A stretch of 37,146 nucleotides of DNA from positions 1-37,146 of the IMG/VR virus record IMGVR_UViG_3300030098_005424; one strand, 5' to 3'. Both the position numbers and the translations under genes were made by a program. This document shows positions 1,319 to 37,146 of the stretch, piece by piece. Numbering within the stretch: the stretch's first letter is position 1; every line of letters begins with the position of its first letter. The stretch comes from a virus. The notes beneath the pieces were generated by a model. It was not told the DNA's origin, ran no database searches, and saw nothing but the letters and a program-made list of their open reading frames with translations.

Positions 1319-4300
1319 ATGGTTAGTCCATTCAATAACAATCAAGAGTCTTTAGAGTCTATTGGACTAGATAGAATACAAACTTTTGATAGACCTGAAA
1401 GTACCTATGGTGAAAGCTGGAGAATATTTAGAGAAAAATTTAAAAGGAATGATTCACCTAATTCCAGGGAATATACATTAACAAAAGTTTTACAACCAAT
1501 ATTAGATGATGTTTTTGAAAAAACTGGTAAAAGATTTCAGAATTTTGGAAATGCTCCTCAATATCCAGTTGTGGGAAAAGCCAATCCAGGCAATTTGGCT
1601 TACGATGTTGTCACTCCAACATTTGATGAAGAATTAGCAAAGTTAAATAAACATATAAAAAAATCAGGATTAGATTATGGAATTATTACTCAGGAAGATT
1701 TACTAGGAAAAGCTGGTGAATTAGCAAGAGAGTCCAGGTCAGATGCAGATGAAATATTAAAAGCTGGTGGACCATTTGGTTCTCAGGCTTTACCAACAGC
1801 GGTTAGTTATTTTGGTGATATGGTAAGTGACCCATATTATTGGCCTTTTTTATTTTATGGAAATATTACTGGTAATTTAGCTAAAGAGGCAATGGCAAAA
1901 GTTTTTGTCCAACAATTTGCAGCTGGAGCGGGTTATGAATTAGTTACTCGACCAAAAGTTGCAACTTTTAAAAAAAGTATTGGAGAAGAATACACATTAA
2001 ATGATATGGCAAAAGATGTTGGTATTGGTGGATTATCAGCTGGTGTTGGTGGTGTAACATTAAATGTATTATTTGCTGGAATTAAGAAAGCATTACCAAG
2101 TATAAAAATCCCTGAAAATCCAACAAACCAGGAGGCTCACGATATTATAAAACAAGCAGCTAGATTATTGGATCCTAATAATCCTAATGGTCATAAAATT
2201 CCTAAACAACTTATTGATGAATTAAATCCTGAAAAAAATATGGATATGGTTAATTATACATTTGGAAGTTTAAAGGATGATGATGTTATTATTAATGCCA
2301 ATCCATTTAAAGGAGCTGATGGTGAAATTGAACATATTAAATTAGTTAATGAAAGTTTAAGAAACTTAGGTGAGTACCCTGATGCAGCTCCTATAAACAA
2401 ACCTACATCACCATTAAATACAGAAAAATTTCAAACTAAAGAAAGTGTTGTTGAGGCTACTTTACCTGAGGATCAAATTAAATTTAACATTGATGAATTA
2501 GAAGTAGATGCAAAAACATTTCAATTTAAATCAGGTACAGATGAATTTGGTGTATCTGATAAAATGAAAAATGTAACAAAGTGGGAACCATTTCTTGCTG
2601 ATAAAATATTAGTATTTGAAAATAAAGCGGGGAAAAAAATTGTTGTTGATGGTCATCAAAGATTAGGTTTAGCTAAAAGAATTATAGCTCAAAATGATGG
2701 ACAAAAACCAGCATTATATGGTCATCTATTTAGAGAGGTTGATGGTTTTACAGCTCAGGAAGTTAGAACGATTGGAGCTGCAAAAAATATAGCTAATATT
2801 CAAAAGTTAAATGCTATGGATATTGCTAAAGTTTTAAAGTTAGATAAAAAAAAATTAGATTCAATCGGTATTCCTCGAACATCAGAATTTTATAAACAAG
2901 GTAATGATTTAAGTAAACTGGGAGATGATGCCTGGTTAATGATGGAGAATAAAGTTATTGATGAGAATTTTGGAGCTTTGGTTGGAAGAATGGTTGATGA
3001 TGTTGACAAACAACCAACGATTATAAAATTATTAAATGAAACAAAACCAACTAATTTAGTACAAGCTGAATCAATTATTAACCAGGCATTAAGAGCTGGT
3101 TTTAAAACTGAATCTCAAGAAACCTTATTTGGTAATCTAAAGGTTACAGAAACTTTATTTAAAGAAAGAGCTGTAATATTAGATGAAACACTAAAAAGGT
3201 TAAAAAGAGATAAGCAAGTGTTTAAAACACTCGTAGAAAATCAATCACAAATTGAATCTAAAGGAAACCAATTAGTGAAAAATATTAATAAAGAAATGGA
3301 GGTAAACAATGCCCAGGCAGAAGAAATACTCAAAAGACTTGCTCACACAACCGGAACAATCGGTGATGAACTCACCAAAGCAGCTAAAAAGTTTAAAGAA
3401 ACAAAAAGTAAACGAGCAGCTGTCGATGACCTCTCAAGAGTTATCCGAGAAGAAATACAGCGAGGCAATATCTCTAGGAGTACAGATGGCAGAATCGGAG
3501 ATGCTATTAAGGATCAAAAGACAGAAATTATGGACCCTATCCCAGAAAGAACGAATATTCAGGGATTCGATGAACCAAGAAAAGGAAATGTAGTTCAGGA
3601 ACAAGCTGACCAATTAGAAAATGTATTAAAAGAAGAAATTGGAATAGATACTCAATCGCCTACAAATCTTTCAGCATCCAAAACTGATCCGACAGTTAAA
3701 GAGGGAGCTGGTTTCCAGGATTCAGATTTTCTATCAAAAAATACTGGAGCTGCACCACCATCCTCAGTTTTTGCTAAAGATATAGGAAAGCCAATATCTC
3801 GAACACCTACAGAATCAAGAGGTTCAATGGGTGATATGAATTTTTCTGACATTATTACCTATCATAAAGTTAGTAACCTAGATGAATTATTTAAACTAGC
3901 TAATAAAAATAAAACTAATGCAAACAATACACTTACAAATATAGCACGAAAATACAAAGATGGTAAAGCAGAAATTTCAATTAAAGAAAAACAAAAATTG
4001 TTAGATAATATTGCACAAAAAAAAGAACTAGATTCAACTCATTCATTTTTAAATGAACCGGATATATTTAGAGGTAGAATTATTGTAAACAATATTGATG
4101 ATATTCAAAAGGTAGTTAATGATATTAAAAAAGATTTTGGAATTGTTAGAGAAAAAAACCTTTTAAAATCACCTACAGATACTGGTTATAGAGGGTATCA
4201 TTTACAACTAATAACTAAAGATGGATTAGGTTTTGAACTACAAATACATCATCAAAAATTATTAGATAAATTAACACAATTAAAAAAGACACCTACTTCA

Positions 4301-4633
4301 GTATATAAATTTGACAAAAATTTAAGAGCTAAATTTACTAATAAAATAAAGATTACAAAAGAAGAAGTAGATTTACTAGACCAGTATAAACTTAATGAAA
4401 AAAAAATTAATGATGAATTATACAATGAAGTTATTCAAGAAGAAAAAATGGTAGATGAATTACTTACTGACATTGAGGCAAGAAAACCAATACTTGATGA
4501 ATCAATAGAATTTCAAGAACCTAACTTACAATCAGCTGATGGTGTTATTTCAAAGAATCAAACAGTTCGAGAGGTATTTGAAGAATTTAATAAAGATAAA
4601 GAAATGTTAAATAGATTAAAGGATTGTGCTTAA
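1319..4633 (+). CDS. Large polyvalent internal virion protein with ParB-like and RelA/SpoT-like domains
   Basis: This 1104-residue protein starts directly after the M15 peptidase stop. Residues about 150-260 form a Gly/Ala-rich, partly hydrophobic segment like the N-terminal parts of phage polyvalent or internal virion proteins. Residues about 385-560 carry a ParB/sulfiredoxin-like core with the signature VVDGHQRLGLAKR at 442-454. Residues about 640-790 are charged and probably coiled. Residues about 850-990 resemble the RelA/SpoT nucleotidyltransferase fold: DIFRGRIIV near 915-923, GYRGYHL at 956-962 and ELQI at 973-976. The lysine-rich loop of active alarmone synthetases is not obvious, so activity is uncertain. 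The stop overlaps the next ATG (TAATG). It is probably delivered into the host with the DNA. Confidence 0.7.
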   Translation: MVSPFNNNQESLESIGLDRIQTFDRPESTYGESWRIFREKFKRNDSPNSREYTLTKVLQPILDDVFEKTGKRFQNFGNAPQYPVVGKANPGNLAYDVVTPTFDEELAKLNKHIKKSGLDYGIITQEDLLGKAGELARESRSDADEILKAGGPFGSQALPTAVSYFGDMVSDPYYWPFLFYGNITGNLAKEAMAKVFVQQFAAGAGYELVTRPKVATFKKSIGEEYTLNDMAKDVGIGGLSAGVGGVTLNVLFAGIKKALPSIKIPENPTNQEAHDIIKQAARLLDPNNPNGHKIPKQLIDELNPEKNMDMVNYTFGSLKDDDVIINANPFKGADGEIEHIKLVNESLRNLGEYPDAAPINKPTSPLNTEKFQTKESVVEATLPEDQIKFNIDELEVDAKTFQFKSGTDEFGVSDKMKNVTKWEPFLADKILVFENKAGKKIVVDGHQRLGLAKRIIAQNDGQKPALYGHLFREVDGFTAQEVRTIGAAKNIANIQKLNAMDIAKVLKLDKKKLDSIGIPRTSEFYKQGNDLSKLGDDAWLMMENKVIDENFGALVGRMVDDVDKQPTIIKLLNETKPTNLVQAESIINQALRAGFKTESQETLFGNLKVTETLFKERAVILDETLKRLKRDKQVFKTLVENQSQIESKGNQLVKNINKEMEVNNAQAEEILKRLAHTTGTIGDELTKAAKKFKETKSKRAAVDDLSRVIREEIQRGNISRSTDGRIGDAIKDQKTEIMDPIPERTNIQGFDEPRKGNVVQEQADQLENVLKEEIGIDTQSPTNLSASKTDPTVKEGAGFQDSDFLSKNTGAAPPSSVFAKDIGKPISRTPTESRGSMGDMNFSDIITYHKVSNLDELFKLANKNKTNANNTLTNIARKYKDGKAEISIKEKQKLLDNIAQKKELDSTHSFLNEPDIFRGRIIVNNIDDIQKVVNDIKKDFGIVREKNLLKSPTDTGYRGYHLQLITKDGLGFELQIHHQKLLDKLTQLKKTPTSVYKFDKNLRAKFTNKIKITKEEVDLLDQYKLNEKKINDELYNEVIQEEKMVDELLTDIEARKPILDESIEFQEPNLQSADGVISKNQTVREVFEEFNKDKEMLNRLKDCA

Positions 4634-7089
4634 TGAGTTTTAAAGATTGTGTAGTTAATGCTAATAAAGAGGGTAAGATGACCGATGAGCAAAAGGCTTA
4701 TGCGGATGAAGTTTATGACCAATTAGAAATGGAATTTACTAAATCATCGAGTCCTGAAAATGCAGCCTCTCGAGCTGCGAAAGAAACTTTTGATATTTTA
4801 AAAGCAGAAACAGCTCATAAAAAAAGAGTAAAGCTCTTACAGATAATGGCTCATAAAAGAATAATGGATTTTATTGACCGCTATCCTGGTAATTTAGGAA
4901 AAGCTATGCAAGCTCTTATTGCTATAAATGATCCATTTGCAAAAGGTGTATCAAACCTTGAGGCGAGAAGTGGAGCTATTAATAGATATTATCTCGGTTA
5001 TATGAATGAAGTATTAGCTAAGTTTGGTAAAGGTGTAACTGGTCGAACCAGGAATAAAGCTGAAATTAAAGATATGGTTAAAGAAATATTTGGAGAGGAT
5101 AGTGGTAATGTATCAGCAAAAGAATTAGCTCAAGCCTGGAAAGATACACATACTAAAATGAGAATTAGAGCTAATGAGGCTGGGATGAGGATTGCTGACA
5201 ACAAAGATTGGGGATTGCCACAAAAACATAATAATGAATTAGTTTTATTAGCTGGAGAAAAAGAATGGATGGATTTTGTAAGACCATTTCTTGATAAAGA
5301 AAAAATGATTAATGAACAAACTGGTCTTAAATTTACCGATGAAACTTTAGAATTAGCATTAAAAGATGTTTATGAAAAGATTAGCACTAATGGAGCTGCA
5401 ACAATTAAACCTGGAGGCTTAGGTGGCCAGGGTCAAAAAATGTTAGCTAATCGTTTACAAGACCATAGATTTTTAGTTTTTAAAGATGCTGAATCCTGGA
5501 TGAAATACCAGGAACGATTTGGAGAGCCTGATGCTTTTAATGTAATGACTAATCATATTGAAAGTATGTCAAGAACCATTGCTGAATTAGAAGTGTTAGG
5601 ACCTAATCCTACTCAAATGATGAAAAACATAAAAAGAGAAATTGAAAGAAGAAGTGCTAAATTAGTTAAAAAAGAAAAAGACAAAGTAACATCGGCAGTT
5701 AAAACAGCTGAAATTTATTATGATTATTTTCAATTAAGAATAAATGACCCGGTTAATGTTAGATTTGCAGAAACAATGAAAGGTGTAAGAAATGTTTTAT
5801 CTGCATCTCAACTTGGTAGAGCATCTATCTCAGCATTAACTGATACACAAAATGCCAGGCTAACAGCTCGTATGATTGGATTACCTCAAGTATCAATGAT
5901 GACTAATTATTTTAAAACTGTATTTGCTGGATTAAGTTCAAGAGAACGAGCAAAACTTGCAGCTCGATTAGGTGGTGGTGCTGATAACTGGATAGATACT
6001 GCAATTTTAACAGCTCGATTTAATGGTGAGGCGGCTGGTCCTGGATGGACAGCAAGAGTATCTGATATTGTTATGAGGGCAAGTGGACTAGCTCCAATGA
6101 CTCAGGGTGGTAGGCACGCTTTTTTATTAGAATTTACTGGTCATTTTGGAAGTCAGGTTGGAAAAAAATATAATGAATTAGATAAAGTATTAAGAGAATC
6201 ATTAGAGCGATATGGTATTAATGCCAATGATTGGGATCTAATTAGAACAACAAAATTAGCTGATGGAAAATATTTAGATTACCAGGCAATAGCAGCTCGA
6301 ACAGATTTACCAACTGGAAAAGCTAAGGAGCTATCAACTAAAATATTAGAGGCGATTGTCACAGAAACTGAATCAGCAATTCCATCAACAACATTTAGAG
6401 CTAAAGGAACATTATTAGGAGGTTCGAGAGCTGGTACTATATCAGGGGAATTAACTAGAAGTTTTGCTCAATACAAACAATATCCGGTAACAATAATGCA
6501 TACTATGTTTGGGCGATTTATGAACGCTAGAAGTAAATATAGAAAAATAAGTTTACTTGCTGATTTTATTATAGCTGTAACTTTAATGGGAGGTGTAAGT
6601 TTACAATTAAAAGAAATTAGTAAAGGCCGACAACCATTAAAAATGAATACAAAAGAATTTTGGGCCAAAGCATTTTTACAAGGTGGAGGTGCTGGTATAT
6701 GGGGTGATTTTATTGGACAATCTGAGGCTCGTTATGGGAGAGGATTAGGTACAGTAGCTGGAGGACCAACAGCTGGATTAGCAACAGATGTAGCTGATTT
6801 AACAGCTGGTAGTATTTTTAGAGCAGCTCGAGGTGATGATACAAATATAGGAAAAAAAGCTGTAAACTTTGTTAAACAATATACTCCTGGTAGTTCACTT
6901 TGGTATTTAAGTCTAGGATTAGAAAGAGTTGTTTTAGATAACATACAAAGAATGATTGACCCTAAAGCTGAGAAAAGATGGCGCAGGCATCAACGACAAA
7001 AATATAGAGATTATGAACAAGAATATTGGTGGAGTCCAGGAGAGAGTGTTCCCTCTGATACGCCAAATATCGGAGCCGCTTTTGAGTAA
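4633..7089 (+). CDS. Large internal virion protein
   Basis: This is an 818-residue protein. I start it at ATG 4633, which shares a base with the preceding TAA (TAATG coupling), rather than at an in-frame TTG at 4624. Residues about 1-400 are charged and helical. The C-terminal third (about 560-760) has the pattern shared by many phage internal virion and polyvalent proteins: a segment near FAQYKQYPVTIMHTMFGRF, a hydrophobic stretch ending GGVSLQLKEISKG, then a glycine-rich GGGAGIWGDF segment. The hydrophobic stretch near residues 640-660 could insert into the host membrane during ejection. No catalytic motif was recognised. It is the last gene of the ejection cluster, 48 bp before the tail fibre gene. 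Confidence 0.7.
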   Translation: MSFKDCVVNANKEGKMTDEQKAYADEVYDQLEMEFTKSSSPENAASRAAKETFDILKAETAHKKRVKLLQIMAHKRIMDFIDRYPGNLGKAMQALIAINDPFAKGVSNLEARSGAINRYYLGYMNEVLAKFGKGVTGRTRNKAEIKDMVKEIFGEDSGNVSAKELAQAWKDTHTKMRIRANEAGMRIADNKDWGLPQKHNNELVLLAGEKEWMDFVRPFLDKEKMINEQTGLKFTDETLELALKDVYEKISTNGAATIKPGGLGGQGQKMLANRLQDHRFLVFKDAESWMKYQERFGEPDAFNVMTNHIESMSRTIAELEVLGPNPTQMMKNIKREIERRSAKLVKKEKDKVTSAVKTAEIYYDYFQLRINDPVNVRFAETMKGVRNVLSASQLGRASISALTDTQNARLTARMIGLPQVSMMTNYFKTVFAGLSSRERAKLAARLGGGADNWIDTAILTARFNGEAAGPGWTARVSDIVMRASGLAPMTQGGRHAFLLEFTGHFGSQVGKKYNELDKVLRESLERYGINANDWDLIRTTKLADGKYLDYQAIAARTDLPTGKAKELSTKILEAIVTETESAIPSTTFRAKGTLLGGSRAGTISGELTRSFAQYKQYPVTIMHTMFGRFMNARSKYRKISLLADFIIAVTLMGGVSLQLKEISKGRQPLKMNTKEFWAKAFLQGGGAGIWGDFIGQSEARYGRGLGTVAGGPTAGLATDVADLTAGSIFRAARGDDTNIGKKAVNFVKQYTPGSSLWYLSLGLERVVLDNIQRMIDPKAEKRWRRHQRQKYRDYEQEYWWSPGESVPSDTPNIGAAFE

Positions 7090-14795: not shown

Positions 14796-15038
14796 CTAAT
14801 ATTCTAAAGATTCATAATTAATTCTGACAGAACGATTGCTCCATTTATCTCGTGAAATATAATTTTTACTTTCGAGCCTATCTAATAAATGATTTATACC
14901 GCTATCAGATTTAGTTTTTTTAAACTTCTTCATCTCCTGGTAAGATGGAGCATAATGATTAGTTTCTATAAAGTTCTTAATAAACATAAACAACTCCTTT
15001 TCTTTTGGTGTAAAATAATTTCCATTAAACATCATCAA
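14796..15038 (-). CDS. LexA-like DNA-binding domain protein without protease domain
   Basis: An 80-residue protein that matches the winged-helix N-terminal domain of LexA: FTPKEKELFMFIKNFIETNH, then YAPSYQEM (the LexA GYAPSxxEI pattern), then SDSGINHLLDRLESKNYISR. The Ser-Lys autoprotease domain of LexA/CI is absent, so it cannot cleave itself. It probably binds DNA as a small regulator, perhaps at SOS-type or prophage operators. The start (three ATG codons in a row) overlaps the end of the exonuclease gene. Confidence 0.7.
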   Translation of the reverse strand: MMMFNGNYFTPKEKELFMFIKNFIETNHYAPSYQEMKKFKKTKSDSGINHLLDRLESKNYISRDKWSNRSVRINYESLEY

Positions 15039-15984
15039 ACACCTTTACCTTTAAAGACTTACCTCGAGTAGCTGGCCGAGCTGGAACTGTGTAAGATTTC
15101 CTGGCTGAATTTTCAGGCCAAAATATTTCAACATTATTGCCAACTGCTTTATCGTGATTAGCCATAATAGACATTAAATAAGAAGTGCATTCATCCTTAA
15201 TTTTCTGACCGGATTTAATTAATTGTTGAGCCTCTAATAGTTTATCAACAATTTCCATATCCTCTCCGCCTAAAACTACCGGAGGTAATCCCTGGTCAAC
15301 TTTATAAGTAGCAATGCCATCCATTGGATTAGCTACTGGGTACCAATCAACAACCTTATTAACTTTATAGTCATCAATTTTTTTTTGAAACTCAGGTATT
15401 AATTGCTCGATATGTTTTCTAATTTCAGGATTGCTTTTTGTTACAAAAACCCTCAGATGAATACCTTGATACAAATGAGCAATTACAGCATATTTTGCAC
15501 CGGTACACATCATTAATCCCTCAACTTGATAAGGACCTTTATTCAAATCTGGAATAGTTTGAGGTGGTTTGCCAATAGCTTTTGCCTCAACAACAACAAG
15601 ACCATCTAATACAATTTCATCATCATCACCTAAAACATATACATTTTGTTCAGGCATATTAGGCACTCTTACTTTATTAACAGTACATAAAGCATCAGGT
15701 GAACCGGATAATGGTAATGTTGAATGATGTACCGGATCACAATCTTCATCGTAAGCAGTAATTAATAATTTTTTTAATCCTAATTCTATGATTTTAGGTT
15801 CGTGAATATTTCCCCAATGCATTGGACTACCTGAAATTTCAACTCTATCAATTCCATTAGATTTACCAATAGAATCTATAGCTGACCTTAAAATATCATT
15901 AGGCGAATCATATTTAGAATGACCAGCTAATATTGAAAGTATTGAGCAGCTGGCCTGGTCATCTCTTGTTCTTTTTCCTACCAT
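15025..15984 (-). CDS. YqaJ / lambda-exonuclease-type recombination nuclease
   Basis: A 319-residue protein with the viral recombinase (YqaJ/lambda Red alpha) pattern: WGNIHEPKII with E62, SGSPDAL with D97, VVVEAKAIG with E133 and K135, and a downstream Q153 in the PYQVEG segment. These fit the PD-(D/E)XK active site of 5'-3' exonucleases that make single-stranded tails for strand annealing. An SSB-like protein is encoded in the divergent operon, but I saw no RecT/Beta annealase. A GAGGT element lies upstream of the ATG. The leftward, recombinase-linked position is unusual for a replication-type gene. Confidence 0.75.
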   Translation of the reverse strand: MVGKRTRDDQASCSILSILAGHSKYDSPNDILRSAIDSIGKSNGIDRVEISGSPMHWGNIHEPKIIELGLKKLLITAYDEDCDPVHHSTLPLSGSPDALCTVNKVRVPNMPEQNVYVLGDDDEIVLDGLVVVEAKAIGKPPQTIPDLNKGPYQVEGLMMCTGAKYAVIAHLYQGIHLRVFVTKSNPEIRKHIEQLIPEFQKKIDDYKVNKVVDWYPVANPMDGIATYKVDQGLPPVVLGGEDMEIVDKLLEAQQLIKSGQKIKDECTSYLMSIMANHDKAVGNNVEIFWPENSARKSYTVPARPATRGKSLKVKVFDDV

Positions 15985-16694: not shown

Positions 16695-17195
16695 TTAGGA
16701 CATTTTTTCATAATTATCGATGGCTTTTTGTACCGCCTGAACCCGACTAAAAGGACTCTCATTATAATATGTTGAACGAGCTTGTTTAAAAGCTGATATA
16801 ATTGCAATAAGCAGCGCAGTTGGATATAATCTGCGGGTTTTAACATAATGCTCTTTTCCAAATGATTTAAAATCGTAATCAATATAACCTAAATCAACTA
16901 AATCACCTTTAATTGTACTGACAGTTTGACGAGTCAATGTTGTTGCTTGACTAATCTCAGCAATGCTTAAACAATTGTCCGAATAATATGCATAAGAAAT
17001 TGACAAAAAAACTAAAAACCTTGGTCCAGTTCTATTAAAAAAATAAATACCATCAACAATTTTAGATGGATAATTATTTATATATTTAGCATATCTTGTT
17101 CTTTTATCAATTAATATTAAATCAAGCAAATGTTTAAATAGTGTTTTACCATATTGTTTGTCAAATTCTTGTCGATTAAATAAATCAATCTTCAT
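16695..17195 (-). CDS. Winged-helix (MarR-like) DNA-binding protein
   Basis: A 166-residue protein. Residues about 80-118 form a helix-turn-helix and wing: LSIAEISQATTLTRQTVSTI, then a DLVDLGYIDY wing segment. The N-terminal 75 residues contain two helices that may dimerise. A GGAGG ribosome binding site precedes the ATG, and the gene overlaps the 3' end of the recombinase, so the two are co-expressed. It is a candidate regulator of the recombinase or of the divergent promoters; the target is unknown. Confidence 0.65.
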   Translation of the reverse strand: MKIDLFNRQEFDKQYGKTLFKHLLDLILIDKRTRYAKYINNYPSKIVDGIYFFNRTGPRFLVFLSISYAYYSDNCLSIAEISQATTLTRQTVSTIKGDLVDLGYIDYDFKSFGKEHYVKTRRLYPTALLIAIISAFKQARSTYYNESPFSRVQAVQKAIDNYEKMS

Positions 17196-17976
17196 AAATA
17201 CCTCCTCGTATCATAATGTTTCTGATTGTAGTTCTTTTATCAACTTTACCTTTAATAAACCAGCGGCAATCCTCCTCTTTAACCTCTCCTTTATTAAAAG
17301 ATGTTTGTCTTAATACTGGCACTCCTCTAACTTGCAGCTCCTTAGCTATCTCTTTTAAAGTTGTAAAACCAGCCGCTTTAATCTTTTTAATCTCCTCACA
17401 GATTTTTTCAGCATCATCCTGAGCCGTCAGCTGGCGAGCTTGCACCGCTTTTTTCTGACCAATACCAGGATTCGGTGATCCTAATTTAACTCCTTGAGCT
17501 TTTCTCTCAGCTAAAGCATTTTTAGTTCTCTCAGATATTAAAGCCGCCTCATATTCAGCAACATTCGCTAAATTAACTAACATAAATCTATTGGTTGCTG
17601 GATTATGAAACATTGGAACATCGGTAGCAATAAATGGTTGTTTTGAATCTAGTATCTTAGTTAAAAAAGATACATTACGAACCAATCTATCTAATTTAGC
17701 TACAACTAATATCGCTCCGGTAGATTTACAATGAGCTAGAGCTTTCATCAGCTCAGGCCGCCTTAAATTGGCCGCCCTACCCGACTCTATCTCAACATAC
17801 TCTCCGATCCGCTCCCAGGGTCCGCCATTAAGATGCTTTTCAATAGCGGTCCTTTGAGCCTCTAAACCTAACCCGGATTTACCTTGCTCCTTGGTAGATA
17901 CTCTCAGATAAAATACATACTTACCTTTATGAGCCTCTCCAGGAACAAAATCTTTTTTCCTAAAGTTTCTGGTCAT
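17185..17976 (-). CDS. Small serine recombinase (resolvase/invertase family)
   Basis: A 263-residue protein. I start it at ATG 17976, which overlaps the upstream gene's TGA (ATGA), rather than at a TTG 15 bases earlier. The catalytic serine is S27 in YLRVSTKEQ; GLGLEAQR follows, and AKLDRLVRN carries the active-site arginine pattern. Residues about 205-260 look like the short C-terminal DNA-binding region (FTTLKEIAKELQVRGVPVLR). At this size it lacks the zinc and coiled-coil domains of large phage serine integrases. It may integrate the phage, invert a segment, or resolve dimers of an extrachromosomal prophage. Confidence 0.85.
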   Translation of the reverse strand: MTRNFRKKDFVPGEAHKGKYVFYLRVSTKEQGKSGLGLEAQRTAIEKHLNGGPWERIGEYVEIESGRAANLRRPELMKALAHCKSTGAILVVAKLDRLVRNVSFLTKILDSKQPFIATDVPMFHNPATNRFMLVNLANVAEYEAALISERTKNALAERKAQGVKLGSPNPGIGQKKAVQARQLTAQDDAEKICEEIKKIKAAGFTTLKEIAKELQVRGVPVLRQTSFNKGEVKEEDCRWFIKGKVDKRTTIRNIMIRGGIYED

Positions 17977-18125
17977 AGCTCTTGAGTCCAATAATCATAC
18001 AGTTCATCTACATCTTTATCTGATGCTTTATAAATCCATTTATAGTGATTACCAGCTATTTTTTCTTGATTAACTATAAACCTTATTCTTCCATTTTTAG
18101 TTTTATGTCTTTTAAATTTACTCAT
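17973..18125 (-). CDS. Small hypothetical protein (50 aa)
   Basis: A 50-codon frame directly upstream of, and overlapping (ATGA), the recombinase ATG. The peptide is basic at the N-terminus (MSKFKRHKTKNGRIRFIV) and acidic at the C-terminus (KDVDELYDYWTQEL). Its coupling to the recombinase supports real translation and suggests a partner role, for example as a recombination directionality factor, but no family is recognisable. Confidence 0.5.
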   Translation of the reverse strand: MSKFKRHKTKNGRIRFIVNQEKIAGNHYKWIYKASDKDVDELYDYWTQEL

Positions 18126-23937: not shown

Positions 23938-24732
23938 ATGAAACACAAAATATTAGATTTGTTTTCAGGAATAGGTGGATTTAGTTATGGATTTGAAATG
24001 GCTAATTTGGGTGAAACTATTGTATTTGTTGAAAAGGACGAGTTTTGTCAGAAAGTTTTAAGAAAGCATTGGAAGAATGTTCCAATAATAAACGACATAA
24101 GGAAAGTTAATGGAAAAGACTTTGGTTCAGCTACCATTATTTCAGGAGGATTCCCTTGCCAGCCATTCTCAGTTGCTGGAAAAAGAAAAGGCAAAGATGA
24201 CGACAGATACTTGTGGGACGAAACTATTAGAGTTGTTGCCGAGTGCAAACCGAAATGGTTTATTGGAGAAAATGTTGACGGCATTGTTAACATCTCCGAA
24301 GGTACAATCTTGCGACAGATACAAGACGATTTGGAAAAAGAGGGTTTCCAAGTCCAATGTCTTGTTATTCCAGCTAGCGGCATCGGTGCTTGGCATCAAA
24401 GAAAAAGAGTCTGGATCATCGGACATAATGTATCCAACACCAAGATCCTGCGACCTAGAAGGAGGAGTAGTCAAAAATGTAGAATTAAAAAACGGAAGTT
24501 TCAGCAGACTAAACAAAAAAGGGATTCGTTTTGGAGTGAAGCTAAAAGATGCAGTTCACAAGATGACACCGCAAGCTGGTGGCAAACTCAATCCGAACTT
24601 TGTGGAGTTCCTGATGGGGTATCCTATGAATTACACTCAAATAGAACCGACAGAATCAAAGCACTCGGAAACTCAATCGTGCCACAAATCGCCCAACTTG
24701 TTGGAGAATCAATTTTGAAAGCAGAAATATGA
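23938..24732 (+). CDS. C5 cytosine DNA methyltransferase (Dcm type)
   Basis: A 264-residue methyltransferase. The SAM-binding motif I is LDLFSGIGGF (6-15), the catalytic loop GGFPCQPFS has C74, the ENV motif is at 111-113, QRKRVW at 154-159, and the final motif RIKALGNSIVPQ at 239-250. Only about 80 residues separate the last two, so the target-recognition region is short. It probably protects phage DNA from host restriction. The whole stretch 24110-24718 is also read in another frame as a second protein. The stop overlaps the TerS start (ATGA). Confidence 0.9.
   Translation: MKHKILDLFSGIGGFSYGFEMANLGETIVFVEKDEFCQKVLRKHWKNVPIINDIRKVNGKDFGSATIISGGFPCQPFSVAGKRKGKDDDRYLWDETIRVVAECKPKWFIGENVDGIVNISEGTILRQIQDDLEKEGFQVQCLVIPASGIGAWHQRKRVWIIGHNVSNTKILRPRRRSSQKCRIKKRKFQQTKQKRDSFWSEAKRCSSQDDTASWWQTQSELCGVPDGVSYELHSNRTDRIKALGNSIVPQIAQLVGESILKAEI
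24110..24718 (+). CDS. Nested gene in the +1 frame of the methyltransferase gene
   Basis: A 202-residue protein read entirely inside the methyltransferase gene in the +1 frame. It has its own ribosome binding site (AAGGAAAG at 24099-24106) before ATG 24110. The sequence matches a recurring phage protein that accompanies Dcm genes: an N-terminal LPLFQEDSLAS segment, a CGTKLLELLP segment, LLFQLAAS, MYPTPRSCDLEGG near 107-119, and the signature LNPNFVEFLMGYPMNYT at 160-176. I recognise this pattern from memory of methyltransferase-linked phage sequences. Its biochemical function is unknown to me; it may help the enzyme with target recognition. The conservation argues against a chance open frame. 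Confidence 0.7.
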   Translation: MEKTLVQLPLFQEDSLASHSQLLEKEKAKMTTDTCGTKLLELLPSANRNGLLEKMLTALLTSPKVQSCDRYKTIWKKRVSKSNVLLFQLAASVLGIKEKESGSSDIMYPTPRSCDLEGGVVKNVELKNGSFSRLNKKGIRFGVKLKDAVHKMTPQAGGKLNPNFVEFLMGYPMNYTQIEPTESKHSETQSCHKSPNLLENQF

Positions 24733-34536: not shown

Positions 34537-35025
34537 ATGGAAACAATCGCTTTAGTCGCACCTTATATTTCAGCAGTTAGTACAGCAGTATCAGCTATTG
34601 GAGCAATTACTCAAGGTCAATACAAACAAACAGAATATAATGCTCAAGCTGAAATGACAAGACTTCAGGCCAGTAGAGATGCTTTAGAATATAATAGAAA
34701 AGCAGTTGCGGCATTAGATAAATCATTAGAAACATCAGCTGCAATTAATGCTCGAAGTGGTTCGGCTTTATTAGATCCATTTAGCGGATCAATGGGTAAT
34801 TTAACAATGTATGCTTTCGGAGAGGGTTATAAGGACTATACAACAGCTAAAAGAGGAGCTGACATAACATTAGGTATGGGTGAGTTCCAGGCAAAATTAT
34901 ATGAGCAAGCTGGAGATCAGGCTAGAAAGCAAGGAATTTATAATGCTATAGGAAAATTTGGTGAAACTGCAATGACAATAGGCAGTATAGGTTCAGTTCC
35001 TGATACTGGAGGATTAAAAGTATAA
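34537..35025 (+). CDS. Internal virion protein, gp14-like
   Basis: A 162-residue protein. The N-terminal hydrophobic segment (residues 4-25, APYISAVSTAVSAIGAIT) is followed by an Ala/Gln-rich helix (TEYNAQAEMTRLQASRDALEYNRKAV), then a Gly-rich tail. This matches the short gp14-like ejection proteins that line the outer-membrane channel in podoviruses. The stop overlaps the start of the larger ejection protein at 35025. Confidence 0.75.
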   Translation: METIALVAPYISAVSTAVSAIGAITQGQYKQTEYNAQAEMTRLQASRDALEYNRKAVAALDKSLETSAAINARSGSALLDPFSGSMGNLTMYAFGEGYKDYTTAKRGADITLGMGEFQAKLYEQAGDQARKQGIYNAIGKFGETAMTIGSIGSVPDTGGLKV

Positions 35026-37146
35026 TGGCAAGGAGTTTAAGATATAGAAGTATGGGTTATAGTTTAGCTCCAATTAGAAATGTTGATTTTGCTAATTTGA
35101 GAGAAAAACAAATTACCTCATCAATTATGCAACAACAAGCAGATAAGGTTACTAATTTTGCATTAAAAACATACGAAAAAGCTCAAATAAGAAAAGCTCA
35201 GGAAATGGCAGTAAAAGACCCTGAGGGAGTGTTATCACAATATGGAGGAAAAAAACCATTAACCTCAGCTGGAGCAGCTGCATTTGAACAAGCATCAGTT
35301 ATTTCAGCCGCTAAATTAGAAACTCAAGCGAGAAATGATTTAAGTGTTTTATTAACAGATTGGGAAACAAATCGTAAAAACCCACAAGATTTACAAGATA
35401 AAATAGATAATTTAAATACTGGATATTCTTCAGCATTACAAAACCTTGACCCAATAGCAGCTGCAAAATTAAATATGACATTATCTGTTTTAGGTCAAAG
35501 TACAATGAGTGATTATATTGGTAAGTGGTCCAAATGGGAAGATGAAAAAAACCAAACTGATTCTTTACTGGGATGGAATAGAAGAAAAAAGGATGGTGAA
35601 TTATTTGCTGCAAATCAAGGATTAACATTATCTGATGATGAGTTTGATTCAATTCTTGCGATTGATGTAGCAAATCATAGACAGTATCTTGAGGCTAGTA
35701 AATTTTCCGGAGATAAGGTTGCTAGTATGCTTTTAGATTATCAAGAGGATATTTATGCAGCTCAGGTTATTGCAAAATTTAATACAGCTCCTGATAAAAA
35801 TGAATTTATGGATAAAGTGTTTGAACCAGCAACTACTAAGAAAGATGGGTTGTTAAGAGGTTTAAATAGAGATGCTATTAAATCTTTAAGAACAAGTTTT
35901 AACAGAACTATAAGAAGTAGAAATAGTGAATCTAATTCAAAACTAACAGTTTACAATAAGGAATTTACACCAATAAAACAAGATATGTTTAAAGGGTATG
36001 ATGTTACTACTAGATTATCTGAGTTAAAACAAAAAGTAGAAAATGAACCTGATTCTAATAAAAAAGCAGAAATGATGAAAGACATACAATTATATGAGGT
36101 CTTTGGTCCTGAGATAAAAAGGGTAGCAAGTATGCCGGTTTCAGAAATAGATAGTAATGTTTTAATAATTAAAAATGAATTAAAAAAAAATGGGGTTACA
36201 GCATCAGAATCCTTAATTATGGAGGCTTTAGATAAAGTATCAACTGAGAAAAAAGGTGATGCTAAAATTGTAAAAGATAAAATTACCGAAATAGGAAATA
36301 TTATAAAAGCAAATAATACTCCTGACCAAAAAGAAATAAATAAACTTTCAGCAATGGTTAAAGGAATAGATGACCCAGGTGTTACAGAACAATATGAGGA
36401 ATTAGAAAGATTATACAATGTTGTAAAAAATCAAGACATAGTATCTATAAAAAGTGCTGTTGAAGATATTGAAAATTTAAAAGCAACTTTCAATCAAGAT
36501 GGAATTAATATTAATGAACAAGCAATAATCCAAACTTATCAAAATATTATAAAACAAAAAAAATCTGCATTAGCAAAAGACCCGGTTGAATATTACCAAA
36601 ACCAAGATAAAAGTTTTCCTGAAATAAATATGTCTAATGTTATTAGAAAAAACACTCAGGATACTGGAGTCATAAATGATGCGGCCAAACGATATGAATA
36701 TATGGTCCATAAAACTATGTTAGAAGATGGTGCAGTTTCTTTTAATATTTTAACAAAAGATGAATCAACTCAGATTTTTAATGAATTAGATTCAGCACCA
36801 AATGCAACACAAAAAATGACTATTTTAAATAATATAAGAACTGTGTTTGGAGATAAAAGCGATGAATTATTTAGTACAATGTTTAATGATTCTAATCAGC
36901 CTACCGCAAGAATTTATTCGCTTGTTGGAGAATTATCAGGGAGCAATCCTACATTAGCAACAAATATTTTAAAAGGTATGGAAAAAGAAAAGACCGGACA
37001 AATACTAACTACCGATAAATTTACAAAAAATGATATAAAAATAAAAACTCAAGATTTATTGAATGAATTACATATTGGTAGTGATATGAAAGGTTCAATG
37101 CTTGATGCTATGTATTATTCTATTTTAAATGATGGAGATATAGCAA
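35025..37146 (+). CDS. Large internal virion protein, cut by the right window edge
   Basis: The frame opens at ATG 35025 and is still open at the last base, giving 707 residues. It is Lys/Glu/Asn-rich and predominantly helical, with repeated short helices such as KAQEMAVKDPEGVL and DLQDKIDNLNTGY. There is no known enzymatic motif. The final 137 codons match the start of the window at about 90% residue identity, so the gene continues there and ends at 861. It is an ejection component by position. Confidence 0.75.
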   Translation, partial: MARSLRYRSMGYSLAPIRNVDFANLREKQITSSIMQQQADKVTNFALKTYEKAQIRKAQEMAVKDPEGVLSQYGGKKPLTSAGAAAFEQASVISAAKLETQARNDLSVLLTDWETNRKNPQDLQDKIDNLNTGYSSALQNLDPIAAAKLNMTLSVLGQSTMSDYIGKWSKWEDEKNQTDSLLGWNRRKKDGELFAANQGLTLSDDEFDSILAIDVANHRQYLEASKFSGDKVASMLLDYQEDIYAAQVIAKFNTAPDKNEFMDKVFEPATTKKDGLLRGLNRDAIKSLRTSFNRTIRSRNSESNSKLTVYNKEFTPIKQDMFKGYDVTTRLSELKQKVENEPDSNKKAEMMKDIQLYEVFGPEIKRVASMPVSEIDSNVLIIKNELKKNGVTASESLIMEALDKVSTEKKGDAKIVKDKITEIGNIIKANNTPDQKEINKLSAMVKGIDDPGVTEQYEELERLYNVVKNQDIVSIKSAVEDIENLKATFNQDGININEQAIIQTYQNIIKQKKSALAKDPVEYYQNQDKSFPEINMSNVIRKNTQDTGVINDAAKRYEYMVHKTMLEDGAVSFNILTKDESTQIFNELDSAPNATQKMTILNNIRTVFGDKSDELFSTMFNDSNQPTARIYSLVGELSGSNPTLATNILKGMEKEKTGQILTTDKFTKNDIKIKTQDLLNELHIGSDMKGSMLDAMYYSILNDGDIA
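36735..37146 (+). repeat. Right copy of the imperfect terminal repeat
   Basis: This copy pairs with 1-412. Of 22 mismatches, 16 change an amino acid (14 residues of 137) and 6 are silent, with the densest cluster around left-copy positions 206-230. In-frame substitutions without indels argue against sequencing error. Confidence 0.85.

Follow-up and report, generated by a model that had tools for sequence, protein, structure and literature searches.

We analysed a DNA stretch of 37,146 nucleotides, positions 1 to 37,146 of the IMG/VR virus record IMGVR_UViG_3300030098_005424 (hereafter the window), in which one open reading frame (ORF) encodes P0001, a protein of 1104 amino acids (aa). P0001 consists of an N-terminal body of a presumed ejection protein, a ParB-like domain, a RelA/SpoT-type synthetase domain and a conserved C-terminal tail, and its gene stands where epsilon15 has gp16. 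The synthetase domain is a cassette that is swapped as a unit between phages for other toxin-like enzymes, and the protein thus has the constant carrier and exchangeable toxin module that characterise polymorphic toxins. A homologue from a sister phage, L002, has 82.7% identity to P0001 across residues 1–774. The N-terminal part contains a Gly-rich hydrophobic stretch, where the hydropathy peak begins at residues 233–241, and the C-terminal tail is retained whichever cassette stands before it, with the homologues ending in comparable tails.

A sequence-only reading of the window had located a ParB-like core motif, VVDGHQRLGLAKR, at residues 442–454, and we confirmed the motif at this position. 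The AlphaFold2 (AF2) model of the region (predicted local distance difference test score, pLDDT, of 84.6) showed a ParB fold and matched ParB/Noc structures with a Foldseek E-value of 1.9e-5 (7nfu) and a VIA-align Z-score of 9.1 over 196 residues; further structural matches were 7bnk, 6t1f and also sulfiredoxins. Q402, D444–R448 and N490 were invariant across 52 homologues of this block. No Pfam ParB model was matched by P0001, and none was found among the matches listed for the 52 members (best 25/38 families). On the model, residues ~385–594, a larger extent than first proposed, are predicted to form a ParB N-domain plus ParB-type DNA-binding helices.

The same reading had assigned the C-terminal segment (840–1000) to the alarmone synthetase fold from three motifs, DIFRGRIIV, GYRGYHL and ELQI, which lie at residues 915–923, 956–962 and 973–976, respectively. 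Pfam RelA_SpoT matched residues 893–978 (E = 3.8e-7; 30.8 bits, above the curated cutoff of 27) and the NCBIfam YjbM model matched at E = 1e-6, though far under its own cutoff. A phmmer search of P0001 against small alarmone synthetases (SASs) in the PDB gave E ~5e-4, and a profile from nine homologues of the domain (31–40% identity to P0001) matched Staphylococcus aureus RelP (SaRelP) at E = 2.8e-11. The AF2 model of residues 836–1042, made from a nine-row alignment (pLDDT 89.4), had SASs as its first matches (Foldseek E = 1.4e-8), including Bacillus subtilis SAS1 (5ded; Z = 16.5 over 169 residues, root mean square deviation 2.8), RelP (Z = 16.1), Tas1 (Z = 14.3) and CapRel (Z = 13.3); FaRel2 scored Z = 8.3. 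A chance occurrence of RelA motifs is excluded by the Pfam, profile and structure matches. Predicted structure and profiles therefore agree with the proposed fold: residues 836–1042, of which 840–1000 are the core, are modelled as a Pol-beta-type SYNTH fold of the RelA/SpoT synthetase superfamily.

K889, D915, G919, Y957, H961, Q963, D968, G969, E973, Q975 and H977 were invariant in the nine homologues. Using published residue roles for SYNTH domains (PMC5794853, PMC11782079), we found the Mg-binding pair of SaRelP (D107/E174) at D915/E973, the acceptor-binding Tyr of the beta3–beta4 loop (Y151) at Y957 in the profile alignment, and two ATP-clamp residues, K80 and R112, at K889 and R920. The other clamp positions are replaced, as described below, and because the ATP-donor clamp is only partly kept, pyrophosphokinase activity, which from its residues is likely for this RelA class, is uncertain for the copy in the window. 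The acceptor-site motifs of P0001 (RGR, GYH and IH) are intermediate between the quoted signatures of RelA/SpoT homologues (RSH) and Apk2 (PMC12226406), so that the product cannot be named from them. Prediction of the acceptor from the syn motifs was dropped given this mixed signature and the report that a syn motif swap left specificity unchanged (PMC12226406).

The boundaries of the exchange slot were seen directly in a blastn comparison of the window with L002, where DNA homology ends at position 3637 (82.9% identity up to this point) and returns at 4505 (94.2% from there on). The slot of L002 encodes a Zeta-toxin kinase (Pfam Zeta_toxin, E = 1.1e-16). Slot contents were then counted in an alignment of 76 homologues over the ParB block, and the same 76 rows were used for a tree. 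The slot held a Zeta kinase in 23 rows, the RelA class of P0001 in 6, a second RelA/SpoT-like class in 11 and other content in 6, the last including a third RelA/SpoT-like class and an ADP-ribosyltransferase (ART-PolyVal); 23 slots were empty and 7 rows were giant polyvalent proteins. At least 26 slot-state changes were required on the tree. The second RelA class was linked to that of P0001 by a profile–profile probability of 96.4, with controls at 0.1 to 2.4. The third class (L033, L036 and L076, after the ParB block) carries the motifs HIRDSYRFKT...WGWRIIAFD...QLVEWYLP and matched the class-2 profile with a probability of 85.6. In L030, L039 and L017, the class-2 RelA-like domain seemingly has another ParB-like stretch (RDNGDGTFSVRDGNSTYSIA or similar) ahead of it inside the cassette.

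Cassette boundaries were sharp in phages of about 92–98% identity. L038 and L040, which carry a class-2 RelA and a Zeta cassette, respectively, are 96.9% identical over 8 kb before the slot and 98.5% over 2.5 kb after it, while L026 and L029 differ by the presence or absence of exactly 846 bp (282 codons); the pairs L035/L036 and L028/L033 show likewise sharp boundaries. Cassette-less forms are complete ORFs with an intact tail, which together with the exact difference between L026 and L029 rules out truncated assemblies. The cassettes of L033 and L036 are closer to each other (nonsynonymous divergence, dN, of 0.107) than their ParB blocks (dN 0.538), indicating that cassettes move between distant carriers. 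In the close pairs tested, the cassette evolves faster than the carrier. Swaps in the compared pairs were confined to the slot and the flanking genes stayed in place, so that no linked immunity gene is visible; according to Pfam and PHROG, P0001 adjoins a gene for an M15 peptidase on one side and one for a gp17-family protein on the other, and neither is an immunity gene. A cellular source of the cassette was dropped as a candidate after one genome-contig scan with one peptide pattern, a weak search, found no relative.

P0001 has a single cysteine, at residue 1103 of 1104, and the 818-aa protein encoded by the next gene also has only one, Cys6 (N-terminus MSFKDC), a residue conserved without exception across 17 diverse homologues. 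Complete non-giant P0001 homologues have a cysteine among their nine C-terminal residues in 68 of 69 cases; 52 of the homologues are single-cysteine proteins, and 97 of the 73,866 residues in the set are cysteines. The lone exception, L077, has its downstream gene start ~750 bp further on and looks frameshifted. Among 68 pairs, cysteine accounts for 67 of the 53,691 residues of the downstream family, and 65 of these 67 lie within positions 1–10; apparent exceptions reflect start or frame choices in ORF calling. In a second set, fetched via the downstream protein, exactly one cysteine was present at position ~6 in 72/72 proteins, and a C-terminal cysteine in 71/72 upstream proteins; in 19 of the latter no ParB block could be detected. 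The second set partly repeats contigs of the first and all members are homologues, so that these counts measure conservation and not independent events.

Cultured phages at ~28–34% identity share the cysteine pair: phiV10 (C596 of 600 and C5 of 824), YA3 (C634 of 640 and C5 of 847), VP5 (C386 of 390 and C5 of 782), YeP5 (C423 of 430 and C5 of 841) and SI2 (C790 of 792 and C6 of 830). The last of these, L005 (HQ332136), is recorded as an algal virus of Dunaliella viridis, yet it has a tailed-phage genome with a cassette-less P0001 homologue, and its algal host label looks doubtful. The gp14-like and gp15-like proteins of the window have no cysteine. General composition is ruled out as the source of the pattern: of the remaining long ORFs at these loci, 1.3% have a cysteine at positions 2–9 and 7.6% have one among the last nine residues, and gp16-slot proteins in which no ParB block was detected are counted in the latter figure. 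The complete giant polyvalent proteins L004, L006 and L056 (2,565–3,920 residues) have no cysteine at all; the idea that the giants are fused gp16 and gp17 proteins was dropped, as no trace of the gp17 family was found in them.

The genome context points to an ejection locus (Table 1). The gene order is portal, scaffold, capsid, tail tubes, gp14-like, gp15-like, M15 peptidase, P0001, gp17-family protein and fibres, and the order in phiV10 is the same as at the P0001 locus. The VP5 record annotates its gp17-family homologue as ‘similar to ... epsilon 15p17’. For the 818-aa gene, the ORF list gives a TTG start at 4624, upstream of the ATG. The gp15-like gene (~850 aa) is split by the contig ends, and the window ends (1–412 and 36735–37146) match over 412 bp with 94.7% identity, so the contig closes on itself via a strain-variant overlap and is probably a nearly complete genome. 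The tail-tube B protein has 49.6% identity to that of the OM43 phage MEP301, and the phage is a T7/HTVC010P/epsilon15-type marine podovirus. One homologue, L010, has an N-terminal fusion to a pesticin-type lysozyme (PF16754, E = 4.9e-36); by eye, L011 and L095 also have such a domain at their N-termini.

Table 1. Positions of features in the window (1-based)
Feature	Position	Strand	Basis or remark
M15-type peptidase (peptidoglycan hydrolase), directly upstream of P0001	863..1318	+	Pfam Peptidase_M15_3 E = 2e-18; phrog endolysin
P0001 ORF, 1104 aa, ATG start	1319..4633	+	ORF list, gene order; corresponds in place to the ejection protein gp16 of epsilon15; carries an effector cassette
N-terminal part of P0001, residues 1–368, body of the presumed ejection protein	1319..2422	+	Conserved in L002
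Predicted ParB-like domain, residues ~385–594, DGHQR motif and ParB/Noc-like DNA-binding helices	2471..3100	+	AF2, Foldseek, VIA-align
Exchange slot	3638..4504	+	blastn against sister phage L002; Zeta-toxin kinase there in L002
Predicted RelA/SpoT-type synthetase domain, residues 836–1042	3824..4444	+	Pfam, phmmer, profile, AF2 model
Conserved C-terminal tail of P0001, residues 1058–1104	4490..4630	+	87% identity to L002
Cys1103 codon, sole cysteine of P0001	4625..4627	+	Cysteine counts in homologues
Next gene, 818 aa, phrog_684 / epsilon15 gp17 family, ATG at 4633	4633..7089	+	phrog_684 E = 1.2e-172
Cys6 codon, sole cysteine of the 818-aa protein	4648..4650	+	Homologue alignment
RecE-like exonuclease	15025-15984	-	
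Serine recombinase	17185-17991	-	Resolvase E = 2.4e-25
DNA methyltransferase	23938-24732	+	
T7 gp14-like internal virion protein	34537..35025	+	phrog_418 E = 3.7e-6
gp15-like internal protein, 5' part	35025..37145	+	Matches the same 855-aa L002 protein as the 3' part at 1-861

The kind of protein represented by P0001 is already known. The sequence-only reading had compared it with polyvalent proteins, and phage polyvalent proteins that join DdrB-like ParB and RelA/SpoT domains have indeed been published (Iyer, Burroughs, Aravind 2017, PMC5512222). Like P0001, which is presumably also virion-associated, these are late-gene, virion-associated multidomain proteins with ParB-superfamily and RelA/SpoT domains, and their repertoire includes ART and the Zeta-like kinases also described in MuF proteins (PMC5512222), as does the slot of the P0001 family. 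P0001 differs from them in being small, with one carrier plus one cassette, in exchanging cassettes at a single fixed site, behind which the tail is conserved, in the lack of Pfam ParB matches, and in lying in the gp16 slot of a marine podovirus and not in a Spirochaete or epsilon-proteobacterial prophage. The MuF polymorphic toxins Apk2 of temperate phages, characterised as (p)ppApp synthetases (PMC12226406), likewise attach a RelA/SpoT-type synthetase to a phage protein, in their case head-associated. No Pfam or PHROG match to the MuF domain was found in P0001, however, no iapK/aph1 immunity genes are adjacent, the Apk2 toxin is C-terminal whereas the P0001 cassette precedes the tail, and the acceptor-site signatures of P0001 are mixed.

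RelQ/SAS1 and RelP/SAS2 share the fold, Mg pair and acceptor Tyr with the P0001 domain, but the latter has ~18% identity to them, a partly lost ATP clamp and QIHH in place of their QIR, and would be part of a virion protein. The toxic SASs (toxSAS) Tas1, CapRel and FaRel2 share the synthetase fold and are used as toxins; P0001 differs from them in that no antitoxin or immunity partner was seen and in its presumed delivery by ejection. The epsilon15 gp16/gp17-type proteins (phiV10 p19/p20) share gene position, a homologous downstream protein and the single-cysteine pattern with P0001, although no ParB or effector domain was detected in phiV10 p19. Neither the fixed slot, with its natural swap pairs, nor the pattern of cysteines across two proteins was found in the literature searched, and these two features go beyond the published proteins.

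We consider it probable that P0001 is an ejected carrier in the epsilon15 gp16 slot whose exchangeable cassette brings a host-directed RelA/SpoT-type enzyme. Together with the genome, the cell would receive the N-terminal body and the ParB-like block for DNA/nucleotide binding, and the cassette near the C-terminus would supply a single enzyme directed at the host, in P0001 a pyrophosphokinase of RelA/SpoT type. Once in the cytosol, this enzyme would use ATP to pyrophosphorylate the 3'-OH of a purine nucleotide or the CCA end of tRNA, whereby an alarmone would be made or translation blocked, and host growth would be slowed or nucleotide-based defence disturbed ahead of phage gene expression. 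Between phages, the cassette is traded as a unit for a Zeta-type kinase, other RelA/SpoT-like classes or an ADP-ribosyltransferase. The activity, the acceptor and the benefit to the phage are deduced steps of this scheme. Ejection into the cell with phage DNA, as the sequence-only reading had supposed, is well supported by context, since P0001 adjoins an epsilon15-gp17-type gene in virion-gene order with the gp14-like, gp15-like and M15 genes on its other side, and remains at the level of inference. As in polyvalent proteins, unrelated effector and DNA-binding domains are joined in one polypeptide encoded among virion genes. The opposite view, that P0001 is unpackaged and acts in the cytosol as a toxin, expressed late from a gene placed among structural ones, could appeal to the adjoining M15 peptidase, readable as an endolysin, but appears very improbable in light of the conserved gp14–gp15–gp16–gp17 order, the relative fused to a lysozyme domain, the cysteine depletion common to P0001 and other internal proteins, and the cysteine pattern that links P0001 to the next ejection protein.

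Several observations weigh against a delivered, active enzyme. Four of six ATP-clamp positions of SaRelP are changed in P0001 (R78 to S887, S84 to K893, K88 to N897 and R91 to Q900); the R78 counterpart is retained in the homologues L007 and L073. For L010/L011, the pair with the most similar cassettes of this class, the ratio of nonsynonymous to synonymous substitution rates (dN/dS) is ~1.06, which fits relaxed constraint; the GYR..H histidine is absent from class-2 cassettes; and cassette-less homologues are common in many phages (23/76 rows), from which it follows that the effector is dispensable for ejection. A decaying or non-catalytic relic, retained as a nucleotide binder or spacer on a carrier that alone matters, would account for the clamp replacements, the dN/dS value and the cassette-less forms. 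We nevertheless judge it unlikely, as K889, D915, Y957, H961, E973 and Q975 are invariant across such divergent homologues, the reading frame of P0001 is intact and open, and other slot enzymes keep intact signature motifs, as the Zeta cassettes do with their Walker A. Somewhat less easily dismissed, if still doubtful, is a cassette aimed at competitors (superinfecting phages or defence systems) and not at host metabolism, with its product or modified target blocking a phage or a nucleotide-signalling defence. Rapid cassette turnover on a conserved carrier is what an arms race would produce, and conflict systems typically employ effectors of the RelA/SpoT, Zeta and ART kinds (PMC5512222), but no specific target is indicated and turnover is equally expected where hosts differ in sensitivity.

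For the cysteines, a pairing of the lone C-terminal residue of P0001 with the single one near the N-terminus of the following ejection protein is plausible from their placement; a disulfide between the two would account for the retention of just one cysteine in each protein, at the ends that adjoin. We further suggest, tentatively and at somewhat less than an even chance, that gp16/gp17-type ejection proteins are a redox-controlled pair whose disulfide forms in the released virion or under the oxidising conditions of the periplasm and is cut in the reducing cytosol. The chances appear evenly balanced that the terminal cysteines are not paired with one another, having separate roles such as metal binding, homodimer disulfides or acylation, or arising as a nucleotide-level by-product of gene overlap. 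Disulfides would not be expected in the reducing cytosol where virions assemble, and the two proteins may not have the same oligomeric state. The overlap by-product is ruled out within this alternative, as the pattern persists without overlap (L071, L084 and L158) and with both TGT and TGC codons, 1–9 codons before the stop. No solved structure was found by sequence for either ejection protein family, a literature search returned no relevant report of a disulfide-linked ejection protein, and the words ‘disulfide’ and ‘cysteine’ were absent from the podovirus ejection-protein literature examined, including a 2022 review. If the redox pair is true, the carrier would be tethered to the trans-envelope machinery and then freed with its toxin cassette in the cytosol.

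In sum, P0001 would be a marine podovirus ejection protein that serves like a polymorphic-toxin carrier. The natural near-isogenic pairs, with the same backbone and a different or no cassette, allow a direct test of the role of an ejected effector, and the single-cysteine pair, which is cheaply testable, bears on how podovirus ejection proteins link to each other.

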